In this document: piece after piece, positions 11,727 to 63,753 of the stretch
Layout of the letters: each line of letters starts with the position of its first letter
How positions within the stretch are numbered: the stretch's first letter is position 1
Assembly (NCBI RefSeq): GCF_003568865.1
Contig: NZ_CP031115.1
Coordinates: 2,728,001 to 2,792,000, forward strand
Reading direction: 5' to 3'
Length of the DNA: 64,000 bases
From: Rubrobacter indicoceani
Lineage (GTDB): Bacteria > Actinomycetota > Rubrobacteria > Rubrobacterales > Rubrobacteraceae
The notes under the pieces: model-generated
The model's input: the letters and a program-made list of their open reading frames with translations, nothing else
Database searches by the model: none
Told to the model about the DNA's origin: nothing
Translations under genes and position numbers: made by a program

Positions 11727-12560
11727 ATGCGAGTCGAGGTTTTGATCAGGGAGTTCGGGGATGTCCTTGCAGACGACATCGCGACCAGCCCCAGAACGGC
11801 GGAGTTCTACCGGACGGATCTGCGGGATTTCGCCGCGTTTCTCTCCGGCAGGGGGATAGAGGAGATAGGCTCCGTAAAGGTCGGGGAGGTAATGGCCTTC
11901 CGAAACCACCTGCTCGAAGAGAACCGCAAACGCTTCACCGTGTACCGCAAGGACGCTGCCATCCGGCGGTTCCTTGACTGGGTAAGAACCTCGACCGACG
12001 CGGGCTTTGACTACGACCCGATAGAACCGATGCACCAGCCGCTTGACCAGAACATCGTCGCCCTCACCGACGAGGAGGCCGGGCAGCTGCTCTCCTTCCC
12101 GCTCTCGGGGGTCTGGGACCTTCGGGACGCCGCCGTTATAAGGCTGATGCTGGAGAGCGGGGTTACGGTCGGTGAGATCCGGGGCCTCCTGAGGGGCGAC
12201 CTCGACCTCGACGCGGGAACCGTCACCCTCGGCGGCCCCGGTTCGCACCTCGCGCCCCGCACGATACGCCTTGCTCCCGAAACGGTGGAGGTTCTGCAAA
12301 GGTACCTCGGTGCAAGGGAGGACGACACGCCCGAGCTCGTTATCGGGCGGGCCGCAAAGCCCGTGAAGACCTCCAAGGCACTTCACACCGCCATTCTCAA
12401 ACGCTGCGAGCAGACCGGCCTGTTCGAGATCTCACCAATGGTCCTTCGCCACACCTTCGCGGTTCGGATATTGAGGAGGGGAGGATCCCTGGGGGACCTC
12501 AAGGAGGCCATGGGCGTCCGCGACACGACGAACATCGGGGTCTACCGGAAGTTTGTCTGA
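11727..12560 (+). CDS. Tyrosine-recombinase-fold protein lacking most catalytic residues
   Basis: 277 residues with XerC/XerD layout: an N-terminal SAM-like core-binding domain (TAEFYRTDLRDFAAFL ... RFLDWVR) and a C-terminal catalytic-type domain. Compared with XerD, Arg I is Thr147 (ESGVTVGEI instead of TGLRxSEL). The His of HxLRH is Met238, although Arg241 and His242 remain, and the third His is Val264 (MGVRDTT). Tyr273 remains. The usual beta-hairpin Lys is not evident. Strand cleavage is therefore doubtful and a DNA-binding or structural role is more likely. It is not flanked by repeats or mobile genes. The 3' end overlaps the convergent cysteine desulfurase gene by 19 bases. Confidence 0.75.
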   Translation: MRVEVLIREFGDVLADDIATSPRTAEFYRTDLRDFAAFLSGRGIEEIGSVKVGEVMAFRNHLLEENRKRFTVYRKDAAIRRFLDWVRTSTDAGFDYDPIEPMHQPLDQNIVALTDEEAGQLLSFPLSGVWDLRDAAVIRLMLESGVTVGEIRGLLRGDLDLDAGTVTLGGPGSHLAPRTIRLAPETVEVLQRYLGAREDDTPELVIGRAAKPVKTSKALHTAILKRCEQTGLFEISPMVLRHTFAVRILRRGGSLGDLKEAMGVRDTTNIGVYRKFV

Positions 12561-57173: not shown

Positions 57174-58136
57174 ATGAGCGTGAAATTCGGGGTGTTCGTG
57201 CCGCAGGGCTGGAAGATGGACCTGACGGAGATACAGGACCCCGTAGAGCAGTACGAGGCCATGACGGAGGCCGGAAGAAAGGCCGAAGACCTCGGCTACG
57301 ATTCGGTGTGGGTCTACGACCACTTCCACACCGTCCCCGAGCCGACAAAGAACACCGTTTTCGAATGCTGGACGATCACGGCGGGCCTGGTGCGCGACCT
57401 GAGAAGGATAAAGGTCGGGCAGATGGTTACGTGCAACGGCTACCGCAACCCGTCCCTGCTAGCCAAGATGGCCTCGACGGTGGACGTGATGTCGGGTGGG
57501 CGGCTCCTCTTCGGGCTCGGGGCGGGCTGGTACGAGCACGAGTGGCTCGCCTACGGTTACGGCTTCCCGGAGACCGGGCAGCGCATTCAGTCCTTCAGGG
57601 AAGCGTGCGAGATAGTCCACGGTATGTGGACCGAAGACGACTTCACCTTCAACGGGAAATACTACTCGGTGGACGCCCCGATCAACGAGCCAAAAGGCGT
57701 CAGGAAACCGCACCCGGAGTTCTGGATCGGCGGCGGCGGCGAGAAGGTTACCCTGAAGCTCGTGGCGAAGTGGGGCGATGCCTGTAATATCTCCGGGGAT
57801 GAGACGGTGCTTCGTCACAAGCTCGGCATCCTCAAGCAGCACTGCGACGGCCTCGGACGGGACTACGCCGAGATCACCAACTCAAACATCGTGGATGTCC
57901 ACGTCATAGACGACGGCGAGAACCCCGAAGAGGCCACAAGAGCCGCGCGGGGCGACAGGTCTCTTGAAGAATATGCCAGCGGCAGGGTCGTAGGCTCCGC
58001 AGAAGAGGTAACCGAGAAGCTCAGGGCGCGCGCCGACGCCGGGGCCGACTACTTTATCGTCTACCTGCCCCGCGTAGCCTACGACCACCATCAGCTGGAA
58101 CTCTTTGCAAGGGACGTGATGCCCGGGTTCTCCTGA
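57174..58136 (+). CDS. F420-dependent LLM class oxidoreductase
   Basis: 320 residues from the ATG at 57174 with GGGAGGAG 5 nt upstream; longer readings have no such site. LLM barrel: VKFGVFVPQGWKMDLTEI, AEDLGYDSVWVYDHFHTVPEP, GGRLLFGLGAGWYEHEWLAYGYGFP and EFWIGGGGEKVTLKLVAKWGDACNI (read in pieces). This is a common actinobacterial F420 group of unknown substrate. The 248-base gap before it (56926-57173) shows no gene that I recognise. Confidence 0.88.
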   Translation: MSVKFGVFVPQGWKMDLTEIQDPVEQYEAMTEAGRKAEDLGYDSVWVYDHFHTVPEPTKNTVFECWTITAGLVRDLRRIKVGQMVTCNGYRNPSLLAKMASTVDVMSGGRLLFGLGAGWYEHEWLAYGYGFPETGQRIQSFREACEIVHGMWTEDDFTFNGKYYSVDAPINEPKGVRKPHPEFWIGGGGEKVTLKLVAKWGDACNISGDETVLRHKLGILKQHCDGLGRDYAEITNSNIVDVHVIDDGENPEEATRAARGDRSLEEYASGRVVGSAEEVTEKLRARADAGADYFIVYLPRVAYDHHQLELFARDVMPGFS

Positions 58137-58143
58137 GCGGAGG

Positions 58144-58187
58144 CTTTTTAAGGATCTCTTAACGATTGCTTAAGGAGTTTCTAAGCC
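58144..58187. promoter_or_regulatory. Array 1: four 11-bp direct repeats (OmpR/PhoB-type site)
   Basis: Four consecutive 11-mers: CTTTTTAAGGA, TCTCTTAACGA, TTGCTTAAGGA and GTTTCTAAGCC. The core (T/C)TAA recurs in exact 11-bp phase at 58148, 58159, 58170 and 58181. Eight nt after the last repeat lies TAACTT (58196-58201), a -10-like hexamer, and the candidate small RNA begins about 8 nt later. The layout matches activation by an OmpR-family response regulator. Confidence 0.7.
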
Positions 58188-58208
58188 GGAGGGGTTAACT
58201 TCCTCTCT

Positions 58209-58339
58209 AAGGCAGGGCGACGGTTTTCCTGCGGCGGAGACCCGGCGGTTCAGAAGCCGCCGGAGGTGGCGGGGCATCTATTACTCCGCTCCTTGTCTCG
58301 CTACCTGCTCCGCTTCGGCGAGGTCGCCCTGCTTTTTTT
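58209..58339 (+). ncRNA. Candidate small RNA with closing stem and U-tract
   Basis: GCAGGGCGAC (58212-58221) pairs perfectly with GTCGCCCTGC (58323-58332), followed at once by seven T. Between the arms are a perfect 7-bp hairpin CCGGCGG/CCGCCGG (58242-58263) and a CGC-TTCG-GCG tetraloop hairpin (~58311-58320). No open reading frame with a ribosome-binding site fits inside. A -10-like TAACTT and an 11-bp repeat array lie just upstream. I do not recognise a known RNA family. Confidence 0.6.
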
Positions 58340-58363
58340 GTTTCCGGGCTTCGGTTTTCGAGC

Positions 58364-58407
58364 AGTTCTAATCTCTCTTTAATGTGTGTATAACTCTGCT
58401 CTAACCC
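58364..58407. promoter_or_regulatory. Array 2: four 11-bp direct repeats upstream of the secreted-protein gene
   Basis: AGTTCTAATCT, CTCTTTAATGT, GTGTATAACTC and TGCTCTAACCC follow one another, with the core TAA in exact 11-bp phase (CTAA, TTAA, ATAA, CTAA at 58368, 58379, 58390, 58401). CAAGAT (58416-58421) lies 8 nt after the last repeat, the same offset as in array 1, and would start a ~50-nt leader for the gene at 58479. Confidence 0.65.
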
Positions 58408-58478
58408 TGATCGAGCAAGATATCCTTGCTGTAGTGGTTCTCCATGCGATTCGGTGAGAAGAAAGGTCCGGGGGAGAG

Positions 58479-59174
58479 TTGAGGGTTTCACATCTCATGA
58501 TCGCGGTGGCCGCCGTTGCCATACTGTCAGCCGGGTTTATCTTCGGGTGGACGGTAGCGAACGACTCCGGCGAGCGGGCCGCCGGGGAGTGGTCCGAGGA
58601 AGTCGCGGCGACGGACCCGCCACCGCCAGCGCGGTCGCTTTCGGTACCGGACGACGACGTGGAGGGCTCGGACATCGTGGGTCTTCCGAGGTACCCCGGC
58701 TCGGTCCGGATAGAGTACATCCGGGAGGATCAGGGCGAGCTTATCTGGACAGAGACCGAGTACCTTACCGACGCCACGCTGGAGCAGGCTCGCGAGTTCT
58801 ACCGGGATACCTTCAGGTCCAGCAACTGGTCGGTCAACGACATCGGCTTCACCCAGAACTCCTGGGTTTTCTTTGTCGTTGACGACGAGCGGGAGGTCTT
58901 TGTCAACCTGCGCCCGCGAGGGGACATCGTAGAGATAGACATAGAGCACACGGAGCCCGACAGAGCGGAGCCGACGGAGCCCGCAACCGCCGGCGAAGGG
59001 CAGCAGGTCCCCGCCGACGCCTCAGGCGACGAGAACGCCGGGGAGAACGCCCCGGCCCCGGAACAGGTCGCCCCGCCTCAGCGGCCCGCCTACGAAGTCC
59101 CGCCGGCCACGCCGTACTACGGGGACGAGGGCTACGATGAGGACTATGACGACTACGAAGAGTACGACGACTAG
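58479..59174 (+). CDS. Predicted secreted or membrane-anchored protein with acidic tail
   Basis: About 231 residues from TTG (GGGGGAG just upstream but close); the ATG at 58497 is an alternative. An N-terminal hydrophobic segment (LMIAVAAVAILSAGFIFGW) is an anchor or signal. A small domain follows (LPRYPGSVRIEYIREDQGELIWTETEYL, LEQAREFYRDTFRSSNWSV, read in pieces), then Pro/Glu/Ala-rich sequence and an Asp/Tyr/Glu-rich C-terminus. The domain order resembles the lipoprotein at 31060. Upstream it has array 2; downstream it is convergent with the response regulator. Confidence 0.7.
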   Translation: MRVSHLMIAVAAVAILSAGFIFGWTVANDSGERAAGEWSEEVAATDPPPPARSLSVPDDDVEGSDIVGLPRYPGSVRIEYIREDQGELIWTETEYLTDATLEQAREFYRDTFRSSNWSVNDIGFTQNSWVFFVVDDEREVFVNLRPRGDIVEIDIEHTEPDRAEPTEPATAGEGQQVPADASGDENAGENAPAPEQVAPPQRPAYEVPPATPYYGDEGYDEDYDDYEEYDD

Positions 59175-59213
59175 CGGGGCGGTATGTCAGCGTTTTCTGC
59201 AGGGTTCGGGGGG

Positions 59214-59888
59214 TCAGCGGGGTCGGTCGAAGCGGTAACCGGCCCCTCTCACGGTCGTGATCACGGACGGCCGGTCGGGGAGGTCTATCTTTTTCCTGAG
59301 GTACCTGACGTAGACGTCCACGACGTTGGAGCCGGGGTCGAAGGAGTAGTCCCAGATGGCCGAGAGGATCTGCTGCCGGCTCAGAACGTGACCGGGGTGC
59401 TTGGTGAAGTACTCAAGCAGGGCGAACTCCCGGCTGGAGAGCTCCACCTGTTTTCCGGCCACCCAGACCCGGTGGGCAAGAAGGTCTATCTTGATCTCCC
59501 CCATCTCGATAACCGAGTTCTCGGTCTGCTCGGAGCGGCGAGAGAGAGAGCGGATGCGGGCGAGGAGTTCTTCGAGGGCGAAGGGTTTGGTCAGGTAGTC
59601 GTCGGCCCCGTCGTCGAGGGTGGAGACCTTGCTCGTCAGCTCGTCCTTGGCGGTGAGCATGATAACCGGGAGGTTCGGCTTTCTGAGCCGGACCCGCTTG
59701 AGAACCTGTCGTCCGTCGAGGCCGGGGAGCATGATGTCGAGCAGCACGAGGTCTACGTCCTCCTCGGTGGCGAGTCTGAGCCCCTCGTCGCCGTTGTCGG
59801 TGATGATCGCCTCGTACCCCTGAGTCATAAGACCCCGCTGGAGCATCCGGGAGATGCCGGGTTCGTCTTCGACGATGAGTATCTTCAT
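59214..59888 (-). CDS. OmpR-family response regulator
   Basis: 224 residues. Receiver domain with acidic pair in LIVEDEP, phosphoacceptor Asp51 in LLDIMLPGLDG, Thr in MLTAKDE and Lys in YLTKPF. The C-terminal winged helix includes LSSREFALLEYFTKHPGHVLSRQQIL and VDVYVRYLRKKID, ending VRGAGYRF. It is divergent from its histidine kinase. Proteins of this family bind 11-bp-phased direct repeats, and three such arrays lie within 2.5 kb. Confidence 0.96.
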   Translation of the reverse strand: MKILIVEDEPGISRMLQRGLMTQGYEAIITDNGDEGLRLATEEDVDLVLLDIMLPGLDGRQVLKRVRLRKPNLPVIMLTAKDELTSKVSTLDDGADDYLTKPFALEELLARIRSLSRRSEQTENSVIEMGEIKIDLLAHRVWVAGKQVELSSREFALLEYFTKHPGHVLSRQQILSAIWDYSFDPGSNVVDVYVRYLRKKIDLPDRPSVITTVRGAGYRFDRPR

Positions 59889-59942
59889 CTTTTCCCTTCG
59901 TGCGCCTTTGCCCGTGCGTAATTTACTATACGTTCATTGCCC

Positions 59943-61421
59943 ATGAAGAAAGCTCGCGAAAAGTTAACCGGGGTGAAACGCAAGCCTCGCGGAAACGACC
60001 TGCCCCCCGAGGACTCGCTTCTCTCGACCGGACACCCCTGGCGGGTAACGGTCTGGGCCCTGCTCGGGCTGCTCGCCGCCATCATGATCGTCGGTCTGGT
60101 CGGGGTCTTTGTAAACCGGGACATCCGCAACGCCGCCGCCGACGCCCTTGAATACGACGTGGAACTCGAAGACCACGGCGATGACCTTCGGGTGGCGATC
60201 CTCGAAGTCCGGCAGCAGCAGCGTACGCTCTACTTCGGAGGGCAGGGCCCGACCCGCGCGGGTCTGGCCTCGCTCCAGACCTCCTACCAGCTTCTGGAGG
60301 AGGAGATATACGAGTACGCCGAACTCGAGGTCCGCGAGGACGACATCGCCTCGCCGCAGGAGATACGAAATCTCGCCGACCGGTACTACTCCGACTACAT
60401 CGCGGCGATAGAAGAGTTCGAAGACACCGGGGACCGCGCGGCCTGGGACGCGGCCAACGACCTCGCCCTCGCCCGGATAGATGAGATGCAGCTCCTCGCC
60501 GGTGAGATAGACGAGGTGGGAGAAGAGCTCTCGGAAGACTCCCTCTCGCGGGTGGACCGGGAGGCGCGAGCCGGGATGATCGCGATCTCGGCCGTCGTGG
60601 TCGGCCTTCTGCTCGTCGGGGCGATGCTCTCCTACTCGACTTTCCGGGTCGTAAACGAGCTCCGCTCTCTTTACCGCAAGCAGCAGAAGACCGCCGAGGA
60701 ACTCGCCGCCGCCTCCAGGGCGAAGACGGACTTCCTGGCCGACGTCTCCCACGAACTCCGCACCCCGCTCACCGTGCTTCGCGGCAACGCCGAGATCGGC
60801 CTGCAGTTGCAGCACGATGACACGCAGCGGGAGATCCTCTCGGAGATCCTCACCGAGTCGGACAAGATGGGGCGGATGGTCGAAGACCTTCTCTTTCTCT
60901 CGCGCTCGGACTCCTCCTCCCTGCCGCTTGAGATAGTCCCCGTCGAGGTCGGCACGATGCTCTCCGAAGTCGCCGCCCGCGCCGCCGTGCTCGCCCGCGA
61001 ACGTGGCTCGGAACTGAAGACCGACCTGCAGGCAGGCGGCGACTTCGAACTCGACCCCCCGCGCATCGAGCAGGCCGTCATGATCCTCGTGGACAACGCC
61101 GCCAAGTACGCCGGACAGGATAGCCCCATCACCCTCTCGACCCGCTCCCCGGTCGGCTCGGACCTTATCGTTGAGGTCAAAGACAACGGACCGGGTATCC
61201 CCGAAGAGGAACTGGAGAAGATCTTCGACCGCTTCTACCGGCTCGACAAGACCCGCTCTCGCAAGCTCGGCGGCACCGGCCTCGGCCTCCCGATAGCCCG
61301 CACCATCGTCGAAGCTCACCGGGGAGGGATCTCCGCCGCAAGCTCTCCCGGCGCGGGAACCACCATGACCATCCGTATCCCGCAACCCATACCGAACCCG
61401 GAGCTTACCTTCAAGCCCTAG
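59943..61421 (+). CDS. Sensor histidine kinase
   Basis: About 492 residues from the ATG at 59943; a TTG two codons earlier lies 7 nt after TACTAT and could be a leaderless start. Two membrane segments (VWALLGLLAAIMIVGLVGVFV and MIAISAVVVGLLLVGAMLSY) enclose a ~150-residue helical extracytoplasmic sensor. HisKA carries the phosphoacceptor His270 in SHELRTPLTVLRGNAEIG. HATPase motifs are VDNAAKYA, VKDNGPGIPEEELEKIFDRFYRLD and GGTGLGLPIARTIVEAHRG (read in pieces). It partners the divergent OmpR-type regulator. The signal is unknown. Confidence 0.95.
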   Translation: MKKAREKLTGVKRKPRGNDLPPEDSLLSTGHPWRVTVWALLGLLAAIMIVGLVGVFVNRDIRNAAADALEYDVELEDHGDDLRVAILEVRQQQRTLYFGGQGPTRAGLASLQTSYQLLEEEIYEYAELEVREDDIASPQEIRNLADRYYSDYIAAIEEFEDTGDRAAWDAANDLALARIDEMQLLAGEIDEVGEELSEDSLSRVDREARAGMIAISAVVVGLLLVGAMLSYSTFRVVNELRSLYRKQQKTAEELAAASRAKTDFLADVSHELRTPLTVLRGNAEIGLQLQHDDTQREILSEILTESDKMGRMVEDLLFLSRSDSSSLPLEIVPVEVGTMLSEVAARAAVLARERGSELKTDLQAGGDFELDPPRIEQAVMILVDNAAKYAGQDSPITLSTRSPVGSDLIVEVKDNGPGIPEEELEKIFDRFYRLDKTRSRKLGGTGLGLPIARTIVEAHRGGISAASSPGAGTTMTIRIPQPIPNPELTFKP

Positions 61422-61482
61422 GATTTCTCTCTGCTTTGCAGGTCTTCAGCAGCGCAAGAACGGTATTTTATAAAGATTAGAG

Positions 61483-61515
61483 ACTTCTCACCGCCGTCTA
61501 ATAGTCCTTTAACGA
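61483..61515. promoter_or_regulatory. Array 3: three 11-bp repeats upstream of the Arg-rich microprotein
   Basis: ACTTCTCACCG, CCGTCTAATAG and TCCTTTAACGA in exact 11-bp phase. The last matches the second repeat of array 1 at 9 of 11 positions. CAGAAT (61524-61529) lies 8 nt after it, the same offset as in arrays 1 and 2, giving a leader of about 35 nt. Confidence 0.55.
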
Positions 61516-61571
61516 GCCGTCGTCAGAATACGGATCGTAAGGTAAAGAGAAGCACAACAGAAGGGAACGAG

Positions 61572-61709
61572 ATGGCTAACTTCGGCAGAATGGCCCCGGC
61601 GAGCGGCTCCCGGAGCACGCAGACCAACAGCAACTCCGGCGGCAGGCGTCGTCGGCGTCGAAATCGGAGGCGCAGGAACCGTCGCAACCGTCGCAACACC
61701 AACACCTGA
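61572..61709 (+). CDS. Arginine-rich microprotein (45 aa)
   Basis: 45 residues from an ATG with AAGGGA at good spacing. The N-terminal 24 residues are uncharged and Ser/Asn/Gly-rich (MANFGRMAPASGS...). The rest alternates Arg with Asn in runs such as GGRRRRRRNRRRR, giving a highly basic tail. It is too short for most gene finders, but it is bracketed by a promoter-like array upstream and a strong terminator 21 bases downstream. Nucleic-acid binding is the obvious guess; I know no family. It is not L34 or a protamine that I can recognise. Confidence 0.7.
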   Translation: MANFGRMAPASGSRSTQTNSNSGGRRRRRRNRRRRNRRNRRNTNT

Positions 61710-61730
61710 TCCCGGCCTTTCAGGGAGGTA

Positions 61731-61763
61731 GAGACCCGGCCTTGCGAGGCGGGGTCTCTTTTT
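61731..61763 (+). terminator. Rho-independent terminator after the Arg-rich microprotein
   Basis: GAGACCC (61731-61737) pairs with GGGTCTC (61752-61758), followed by five T. The loop contains CGGCCTTGCGAGGCG, which may add an inner stem. It defines a short monocistronic transcript of about 230 nt with array 3. Confidence 0.85.
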
Positions 61764-61818
61764 CGTGCGTTCGGCTGGCTCTGTCGGGCTGGTTTTTGGT
61801 TGAGAAGCGGAGATCGGG

Positions 61819-63753
61819 ATGTTCGACAGGTTCTGGCAGAATTTCAAGCGGCTCTTCGCCGGGATAGACGGCGACAGCGGCGCGATAGTGGATGAGACGC
61901 CGAGCGTCCCGGTCCGGGAGGTTGTCCGGAAGTTCTGGCCCTACGCCAGGCCGTACCGGAAGTACCTGCCGATAATCCTTGTTCTCGCGGCTGCAGGTCC
62001 GGGCATAGAGGCGGCGATAGTCTGGATGTACAAGGTCCTCGTTGACGACGTTCTTGTCGCCGGAAACCTGGACGCTCTTGTCTGGATCGCCTTTGCTTAC
62101 CTCGGGCTGAACGTCGCACAGGGCATCGTGTCGTTTTTCGATTCGGTGCTTTCGGAATGGGTCGGCGGAAGCTTTATAGTCTCCTTGCGAACGGGGTTCT
62201 TCACCCATCTTCAGGGGTTGTCGCTCGGCTTCTTCGACCGTCGCCAGCTCGGCGACACCATCTCGCGCGTTACCGACGACGTGGAAGAGATCGAAGAACT
62301 GCTGCTCTCCGGGGTCGTTTCGGCTGTTTCCTACGGTTTTCAGCTTATCTTTTTTACGGGGGCGCTGTTTTATCTGGACTGGCGGCTCGCGCTTGTCTCG
62401 CTGCTCGTCGCGCCGCTTTTCTGGGTTGCGGCGAGGTATTTCTCGAAGAAGATCAAAGCCGCCTCAAGGGAAGAACGCCGCCGCGCCGGGTCTATAACCG
62501 CCGTTACTGAAGAGAGCCTTTCCAACGTTGCGCTGGTGCAGGCATACAATCGTCAGGACGAGGAGACGGCCCGCTTTCACCGGGAGAACCTCGGGAGCTT
62601 CCGGGCGCAACTCGCCGCCACGCGCCTGAGCGCAACCTTCTCACCGCTTGTCAACCTGATAGAACTCGCCGGGGTTCTGGTGGTTATCTCCTACGGCGCG
62701 TACGGGCTGACGCAGGGGCGGATAACCGTCGGGGGTTTGCTGGTCTTTATCGTCTACCTGAGCATGCTCTACCGACCGATTCGCGGCCTTTCGGGGCTGC
62801 TCAACTCTTTCTATGCCGCCTCCGCCGGGGCCGAACGGATAATGGAGCTCCTCGACGAGAAGCCCGCCGTCCACGAACCGGAGGACGCCTGCGAGATGGG
62901 CCGCGCGAGGGGGCGCATCGAGTTCGACCGGGTTTCGTTCCGCTACGACGGCGCGGAGCGCGACGCGCTCTCTGAAGTGTCCTTCTCCGTGGAGCCGGGC
63001 CGGACGCTCGCGCTCGTCGGGGCTTCCGGTTCGGGGAAATCCACGGCGGCGAAGCTCCTGCTGCGCTTTCAGGACCCAACCTCCGGCGCCGTGCGGATAG
63101 ACGGCGAAGACCTCCGGGGGGTGACTTTGAAATCGCTCCGGGAGAATGTTGCGGTGCTGCTGCAGGAGGCCCTGGTCTTTGATGGAACGGTTCGGGAGAA
63201 CATCGCCTACGGCAGGCCCGGTGCGACCGCGGAAGAGGTCGTAGAGGCGGCGAAGGCGGCGGATGCCGAGCGCTTTATCGAGCGCCTGCCCGACGGCTAC
63301 GATACCGTTATAGGCCAGAAAGGTCGGCTGCTCTCCGGGGGCCAGAGGCAGCGGGTCGCGATCGCACGGGCGATCATTCGCAACTCCCCCGTGCTGGTGC
63401 TCGACGAACCGACGACGGGGCTTGATGCGGACTCCTCGGAGAAGGTCATGGCCCCGATGCGGCGGCTCATGGGCAGGCGTACGACCGTCGTCATCTCGCA
63501 CAACCTGCTCTCCGTCCGGGAGGTCGATGAGATAGTCGTGCTGAACGAGGGAACCATCGCCGAACGCGGAACCCACGGCTCGCTGCTCGCCGCCGACGGC
63601 GTCTACGCGAAGCTCTACAGGTTGCAGGAGGTCCGGGCGATGGAGGCCGGGATGTCGGAGGAGCTTGAAAAGGAGACCGGAGAAATGTTGCAGAATATAG
63701 ACACAGTCGGCATGCCGGAGAGAACGGTCTTCGGCCCGGCGGGGCGTGCATGA
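61819..63753 (+). CDS. ABC transporter, fused permease and ATP-binding protein
   Basis: 644 residues. Six-helix exporter domain (residues ~45-330), then a nucleotide-binding domain with Walker A GASGSGKST, Q-loop in VLLQEALVFDG, signature LLSGGQRQRVAIARAI, Walker B VLVLDEPTTGLD and the H-loop VISHNLLS. It functions as a homo- or heterodimeric exporter, substrate unknown. The stop overlaps the start of a protein kinase gene (ATGA), which suggests linked function or regulation. Confidence 0.94.
   Translation: MFDRFWQNFKRLFAGIDGDSGAIVDETPSVPVREVVRKFWPYARPYRKYLPIILVLAAAGPGIEAAIVWMYKVLVDDVLVAGNLDALVWIAFAYLGLNVAQGIVSFFDSVLSEWVGGSFIVSLRTGFFTHLQGLSLGFFDRRQLGDTISRVTDDVEEIEELLLSGVVSAVSYGFQLIFFTGALFYLDWRLALVSLLVAPLFWVAARYFSKKIKAASREERRRAGSITAVTEESLSNVALVQAYNRQDEETARFHRENLGSFRAQLAATRLSATFSPLVNLIELAGVLVVISYGAYGLTQGRITVGGLLVFIVYLSMLYRPIRGLSGLLNSFYAASAGAERIMELLDEKPAVHEPEDACEMGRARGRIEFDRVSFRYDGAERDALSEVSFSVEPGRTLALVGASGSGKSTAAKLLLRFQDPTSGAVRIDGEDLRGVTLKSLRENVAVLLQEALVFDGTVRENIAYGRPGATAEEVVEAAKAADAERFIERLPDGYDTVIGQKGRLLSGGQRQRVAIARAIIRNSPVLVLDEPTTGLDADSSEKVMAPMRRLMGRRTTVVISHNLLSVREVDEIVVLNEGTIAERGTHGSLLAADGVYAKLYRLQEVRAMEAGMSEELEKETGEMLQNIDTVGMPERTVFGPAGRA

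Follow-up and report, generated by a model that had tools for sequence, protein, structure and literature searches.

What is the function of three short arrays of 11-bp direct repeats that lie around a response regulator/sensor kinase gene pair in Rubrobacter indicoceani? The arrays were found in a 64,000-nt stretch of contig NZ_CP031115.1 (positions 2,728,001 to 2,792,000; hereafter the window, whose numbering is used for the features below), which is part of a 3.08-Mb, nearly complete genome; statements on this genome as a whole rest on pattern searches. Comparison of sequences suggests that the adjacent two-component system, of the OmpR/PhoB family, uses the arrays as operators and would thereby govern a small regulon, and we consider this assignment likely.

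Array 1 (58144-58187, + strand) consists of four 11-bp direct repeats, CTTTTTAAGGA TCTCTTAACGA TTGCTTAAGGA GTTTCTAAGCC, with the cores TTAA, TTAA, TTAA and CTAA in that order by direct sequence reading, and is predicted to be the operator of a small RNA (sRNA) promoter. Four such repeats, AGTTCTAATCT CTCTTTAATGT GTGTATAACTC TGCTCTAACCC, make up array 2 (58364-58407, +), the predicted operator of an acidic-protein promoter, and three (ACTTCTCACCG CCGTCTAATAG TCCTTTAACGA; cores CTCA, CTAA and TTAA) make up array 3 (61483-61515, +), which presumably serves the promoter of an Arg-rich microprotein. Each array is followed on the same strand by a -10-like hexamer: TAACTT (58196-58201, in the sRNA promoter), CAAGAT (58416-58421) and CAGAAT (61524-61529). 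All three fit NANNNT, each separated from the last 11-mer by 8 nt. The original prediction had described both the arrays, in 11-bp register, and the hexamers at this distance. Direct reading of the sequence bears this out, except that the first core of array 3 is TCA and not TAA, and the A at position 2 and T at position 6 of the hexamers are kept at the same offset in relatives. OmpR/PhoB-type operators require at least two direct repeats spaced by 10-11 bp, and the window arrays have three to four at 11 bp. The pattern TAAN8TAAN8TAA has 5 matches in the window compared with a mean of 0.01 in shuffled windows. Throughout the 3.08 Mb, the exact triple occurs only in the window, at 2800778 (~14 kb downstream of array 2, beyond the window) and at three sites of unlike context.

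To establish how general this geometry is, 40 genomes of the family were scanned for the TAA triple plus -10 pattern, with the reversed pattern as control. This gave ~60 matches, distributed over 29 of the 40 genomes, as opposed to ~5 for the control. The period was assessed with a definition that does not include the -10 element, collecting from 18 kinase-neighbourhood loci (271 kb) every chain of three or more (C/T)T(A/C)A cores in which two cores carry TAA. Sixteen chains have a period of 11, with one further chain each at 7 and 18 and none at the other periods from 7 to 24. Downstream of the last core, A is found at -10 position 2 in 14/16 of the period-11 chains and T at position 6 in 13/16, and the offset of the hexamer relative to the last core is fixed in the window and relatives alike. 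Related genomes thus do contain 11-mer arrays with the same -10 offset, and the 11-bp phasing is conserved rather than lost.

An additional element heads many of these arrays. Of 28 non-redundant arrays, 17 have T(T/G)AR beginning exactly 10 nt before the first core, and no other offset has it in more than two. The layout (TTAGA-N4-TCTAA) is that of an inverted half-site, with the variants TTAGA and TGAGA complementing the core variants TCTAA and TCTCA. Within the window it is confined to array 3 (TTAGA, 61477-61481, - strand, its start 10 nt ahead of the first core), arrays 1 and 2 being without it. The original description of the arrays had overlooked this element, as well as the further arrays elsewhere in the genome and the array-bearing homologs of the sRNA and microprotein. 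It can alternatively be read as a degenerate fourth direct repeat.

The response regulator gene (59214-59888, - strand) encodes the receiver plus C-terminal winged-helix domain combination of the OmpR/PhoB family (PF00072 Response_reg, 103.6 bits; PF00486 Trans_reg_C, 96.8 bits; both over cut-off). The sensor histidine kinase (59937-61421, +) has the HisKA (PF00512) and HATPase_c (PF02518) domains expected of a partner kinase, also over cut-off. Pfam hence confirms the OmpR-family regulator/kinase pair that had been proposed. The two genes are divergent, with 48 bp between their starts. Kinase orthologs are present in 13 relatives (44-68% identity over most of the length) and regulator orthologs in 16, among which the recognition helix SNVVDVYVRYLR is nearly invariant. 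Comparison of the ortholog neighbourhoods, in stretches of up to 20 kb, reveals, across several genera, arrays adjoining the orthologous pair, or the regulator, in G000, G010, G014, G018, G020, G021 and G025. Counted by hand, 10 of the 17 pyrimidine-type arrays (cores preceded by C or T, as in the window) in regulator-bearing genomes are within ~5 kb of the regulator. In G002 and G003, the acidic gene and its array are at one contig end and the regulator is at the end of another contig.

A second array class among the family genomes has G-preceded cores (GTAAG...). These GTAAG-type 11-bp arrays, with the same -10 offset, were observed in G001, G005-G008, G018, G020-G022 and G034-G038. They precede other target genes, e.g. 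that of a CcdA-like protein, show no association with the window-type regulator, and are probably operators of another OmpR-family regulator.

The genes placed downstream of the arrays by the original prediction, i.e. an sRNA, an acidic protein and a microprotein, recur in other genera as targets, each behind an array of its own. The structured sRNA candidate (58206-58341, +) has a long terminal helix, which also serves as the terminator, and an arm whose 16-17-nt loop bears ACUCCGCUCCU, and the fold of 58206-58345 has z = -6.9. Counterparts behind their own arrays are present in G010, G002 and G003 (with the window, 4 genomes from 2 genera), with the promoter hexamers TAACTT, TAGTTT and TACATT, respectively, at the same offset. 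The outer helix varies in sequence with its pairing kept, at least three pairs having changed on both sides in a compensatory manner, and the loop with its motif is constant across the homologs. A covariance-model search of the 40 genomes gave strong matches only in the four known genomes and further weak ones at E 0.02-1. No Rfam match, including to the 6C family, was found up to E = 1 in the region 57500-62500. The loop contains a match to the anti-Shine-Dalgarno core CUCC(U), and the sRNA is likely to be a translational repressor acting via this loop. When both genomes of the genus were searched for a 20-nt complement of the loop, allowing 3 mismatches at most, only the sRNA itself matched. 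The exporter gene described below was considered as an sRNA target, its start region being the best of 12 (-21.7 kcal/mol, obtained without a background set); AGCGGAG, the stretch complementary to the sRNA, is absent at the G010 start, and this candidate was not used. An open reading frame antisense to the sRNA was likewise dismissed, as it is not conserved between G000 and G010 when read by eye.

The gene behind array 2 (58479-59174, +) encodes a predicted membrane-anchored secreted acidic protein with an N-terminal hydrophobic helix, a small alpha/beta domain and an Asp/Glu-rich tail, and its TTG start is conserved in several relatives. An array precedes the orthologous gene in G010, G002, G003, G014, G015, G025, G020, G021 and G039. 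The predicted structure has one confident alpha/beta domain, for which the PDB holds no match at E <= 0.001; the nearest matches (best E 1.5e-3) are Mog1/PsbP/DcrB/LpqN-like and include several envelope proteins. Further arrays elsewhere in the same genome precede genes for a glycosyltransferase (2800641), an Asp-rich lipoprotein (2800778) and a subtilase (2333364), names that reflect our own reading of the sequences, and the glycosyltransferase array is conserved in G010. Asp-rich exported proteins are found behind arrays in G000, G016, G020, G021 and G025; the array of G016 (L154:2591) lies ahead of the gene for a small, acidic, exported protein that has an LPDTG-like motif close to the C-terminus.

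Array 3 precedes the Arg-rich microprotein gene (61572-61709, +; 45 aa), a member of a conserved family of 35-45 residues with the pattern MA[KSN]F...PA...(R)n, for which Pfam and NCBIfam have no family. Positional orthologs between an array and an ATP-binding cassette (ABC) exporter gene are present in G010 (two copies), G014, G020 (two), G021 and G025. Unlinked paralogs in G020, G021 (two) and G025 have a TCA-N8-TAA-N8-TAA array with the -10 in the same place, and a paralog in G022 has a slightly worn version; the paralogs of G009 and the third one of G025 are without the full array form. The reading frame could alternatively be a leader peptide acting by attenuation. We argue for a protein product because copies are duplicated and unlinked, the N-terminus is conserved and the Arg codons are mixed. 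From its composition alone, the microprotein is likely to be a nucleic-acid binder. Downstream of it, in several genera, lies the gene for an MsbA-like ABC exporter (61819-63753, + in the window), which would belong to the regulon by read-through. A strong terminator-like hairpin lies between the two genes (61730-61765), and similar GC-rich hairpins are located 3' of the microprotein in G021 and G025; therefore, read-through may set exporter expression.

AT-rich repeats of a different setting were seen at L002 (about 1480-1540), between a DtxR/MntR-like regulator gene and a PhoU-like gene that is followed by a metal-binding lipoprotein. These are likely a metal-regulated operator.

The arrays, their period, -10 offset and conservation, as well as the identity of the targets, the linkage to the regulator and the conservation of RNA structure, are features read from the genomes themselves. 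Linkage, the conserved period and -10 offset, the recurring targets and the array-bearing unlinked microprotein paralogs together support the earlier claim that this is the regulon of the adjacent regulator. The original prediction thus holds for the arrays and very probably for their nature as well.

Several observations weigh against the adjacent pair as the binder. There is no sign of autoregulation, since no array lies in the regulator-kinase intergenic stretch. The association between array presence and regulator presence over the 40 genomes is modest (Fisher p = 0.024, uncorrected for relatedness), and physical linkage is a stronger argument than this presence/absence association across genomes. 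In G015, regulator and kinase are deleted bar a regulator remnant of ~28-34 residues (deletion at L114, about 12196-12297, with only the last ~28 regulator codons left), and the acidic gene and its array are kept. G022 and G037 also have arrays and no close regulator ortholog. Furthermore, arrays of the form CTAA-CTAA-CTCA-CTCA, with the same -10 offset, occur at L176:3577, L178:3587 and L148:3689. In G014 and G018 they adjoin paralogous regulator/kinase pairs, and in G025 the gene behind the array encodes an acidic PepSY-like protein. Because of these arrays without the regulator, and the similar arrays at paralogous loci, a shared or different binder is the main rival: a paralogous OmpR-family regulator encoded elsewhere, or several whose specificities overlap, would bind the arrays, the adjacent pair being one of several or a bystander. 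Besides the adjacent regulator, the genome does encode seven or eight of the OmpR type, and the closest of these shares 45% identity with it. However, the arrays are physically linked to this pair in many genomes, and pattern scans of this genome found no array next to the 45% paralog, and we regard a paralogous binder as unlikely.

The adjacent regulator could instead silence its targets by covering and blocking the promoter. The arrays overlie the -35 place, and many OmpR-family regulators, e.g. ArcA, repress from positions that cover the -35. Yet the last core and the -10 keep a constant helical phase, as contact-dependent activation expects, with the repeats occupying the place of the -35, and silencing seems to us quite unlikely. 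The original prediction had further offered a phosphate regulator (PhoP/PhoB type) as an alternative, the arrays then being PHO boxes. Although TTAAC-like cores with 11-bp spacing are reminiscent of PhoP-type boxes, and the Streptomyces units are likewise 11-nt direct repeats (PMC7866108), the pstSCAB-phoU promoter of the same genome is by eye without such a phased array, the adjacent regulator scores 219 bits on TIGR02154 compared to a PhoB equivalog cut-off of 296.2, and no phosphate gene is among the targets found. We rate this alternative as very improbable. The pstSCAB-phoU promoter (L236, upstream of 8118, - strand) has TTTA-type cores at 11- and 12-bp spacing, possibly this genome's PHO box. 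That the arrays are chance runs, given AT-rich cores in intergenic DNA, is refuted by the shuffles, the reversed-pattern control, the absence of other periods and the conservation across genera, leaving a practically negligible probability.

For the adjacent two-component system as binder, we propose a model in which the kinase would phosphorylate the regulator on sensing a signal at the envelope side. Subunits of the regulator would line up head to tail on three to four successive (C/T)T(A/C)A cores, one helical turn apart, with one extra subunit on the upstream inverted half-site at many promoters. The last two cores of an array flank the usual -35 place, with the -10 at a fixed distance; hence activation is most likely, the regulator replacing the -35 and recruiting RNA polymerase at promoters that have no good one. 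The regulon thus switched on would comprise the sRNA, exported acidic/Asp-rich proteins, the Arg-rich microprotein and further envelope genes. In this model, we infer direct binding, activation over repression, the signal, and the functions of sRNA and microprotein.

The Rubrobacteraceae are noted for tolerating radiation and desiccation. It is conceivable, although doubtful at this stage, that they use a stress programme not described before, in which half-site-headed 11-bp operators would drive exported polyanionic proteins, intracellular polycationic (protamine-like or RNA-binding) microproteins and a translation-dampening anti-Shine-Dalgarno sRNA. The literature searched contained no dedicated regulatory study of a two-component system in Rubrobacter; such a system now gains a proposed regulon with an operator code. 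Two gene families missed by usual annotation are added, the Arg-rich microprotein and the structured sRNA with its anti-Shine-Dalgarno loop; regulon, microprotein family and sRNA appear to be new within the databases and literature searched. Base-level prediction of the promoters makes it possible to test directly the regulator, its targets and the direction of control.

The window ABC exporter fuses ABC membrane and ATPase domains as MsbA-like exporters do, and is below every curated NCBIfam cut-off among the matches listed. The sRNA loop is comparable in principle to those of the actinobacterial B11 sRNA (6C/B11), which is able to pair through C-rich loops with ribosome-binding regions rich in G (PMC10470900). 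In contrast to 6C/B11, the sRNA described here has one loop with ACUCCGCUCCU in a different architecture, is without Rfam match and lies behind a two-component array. The operator geometry is of a known kind, that of ArcA and of the PhoB and PhoP PHO boxes of E. coli, Streptomyces and Bacillus. The PhoB box stands in place of the -35, from which the regulator takes over. The PHO box of Streptomyces PhoP likewise consists of direct repeat units of 11 nt (PMC7866108), whereas the arrays here are not at phosphate genes and the regulator is below the PhoB model cut-off. ArcA of E. coli, also an OmpR/PhoB-family regulator, recognises direct repeats with 11-bp centre-to-centre spacing, 92 of 158 sites having three to five repeats (PMC3798270). 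Regulator and core differ from those of ArcA, and the arrays described here have a fixed distance to the -10 and often an upstream inverted half-site.

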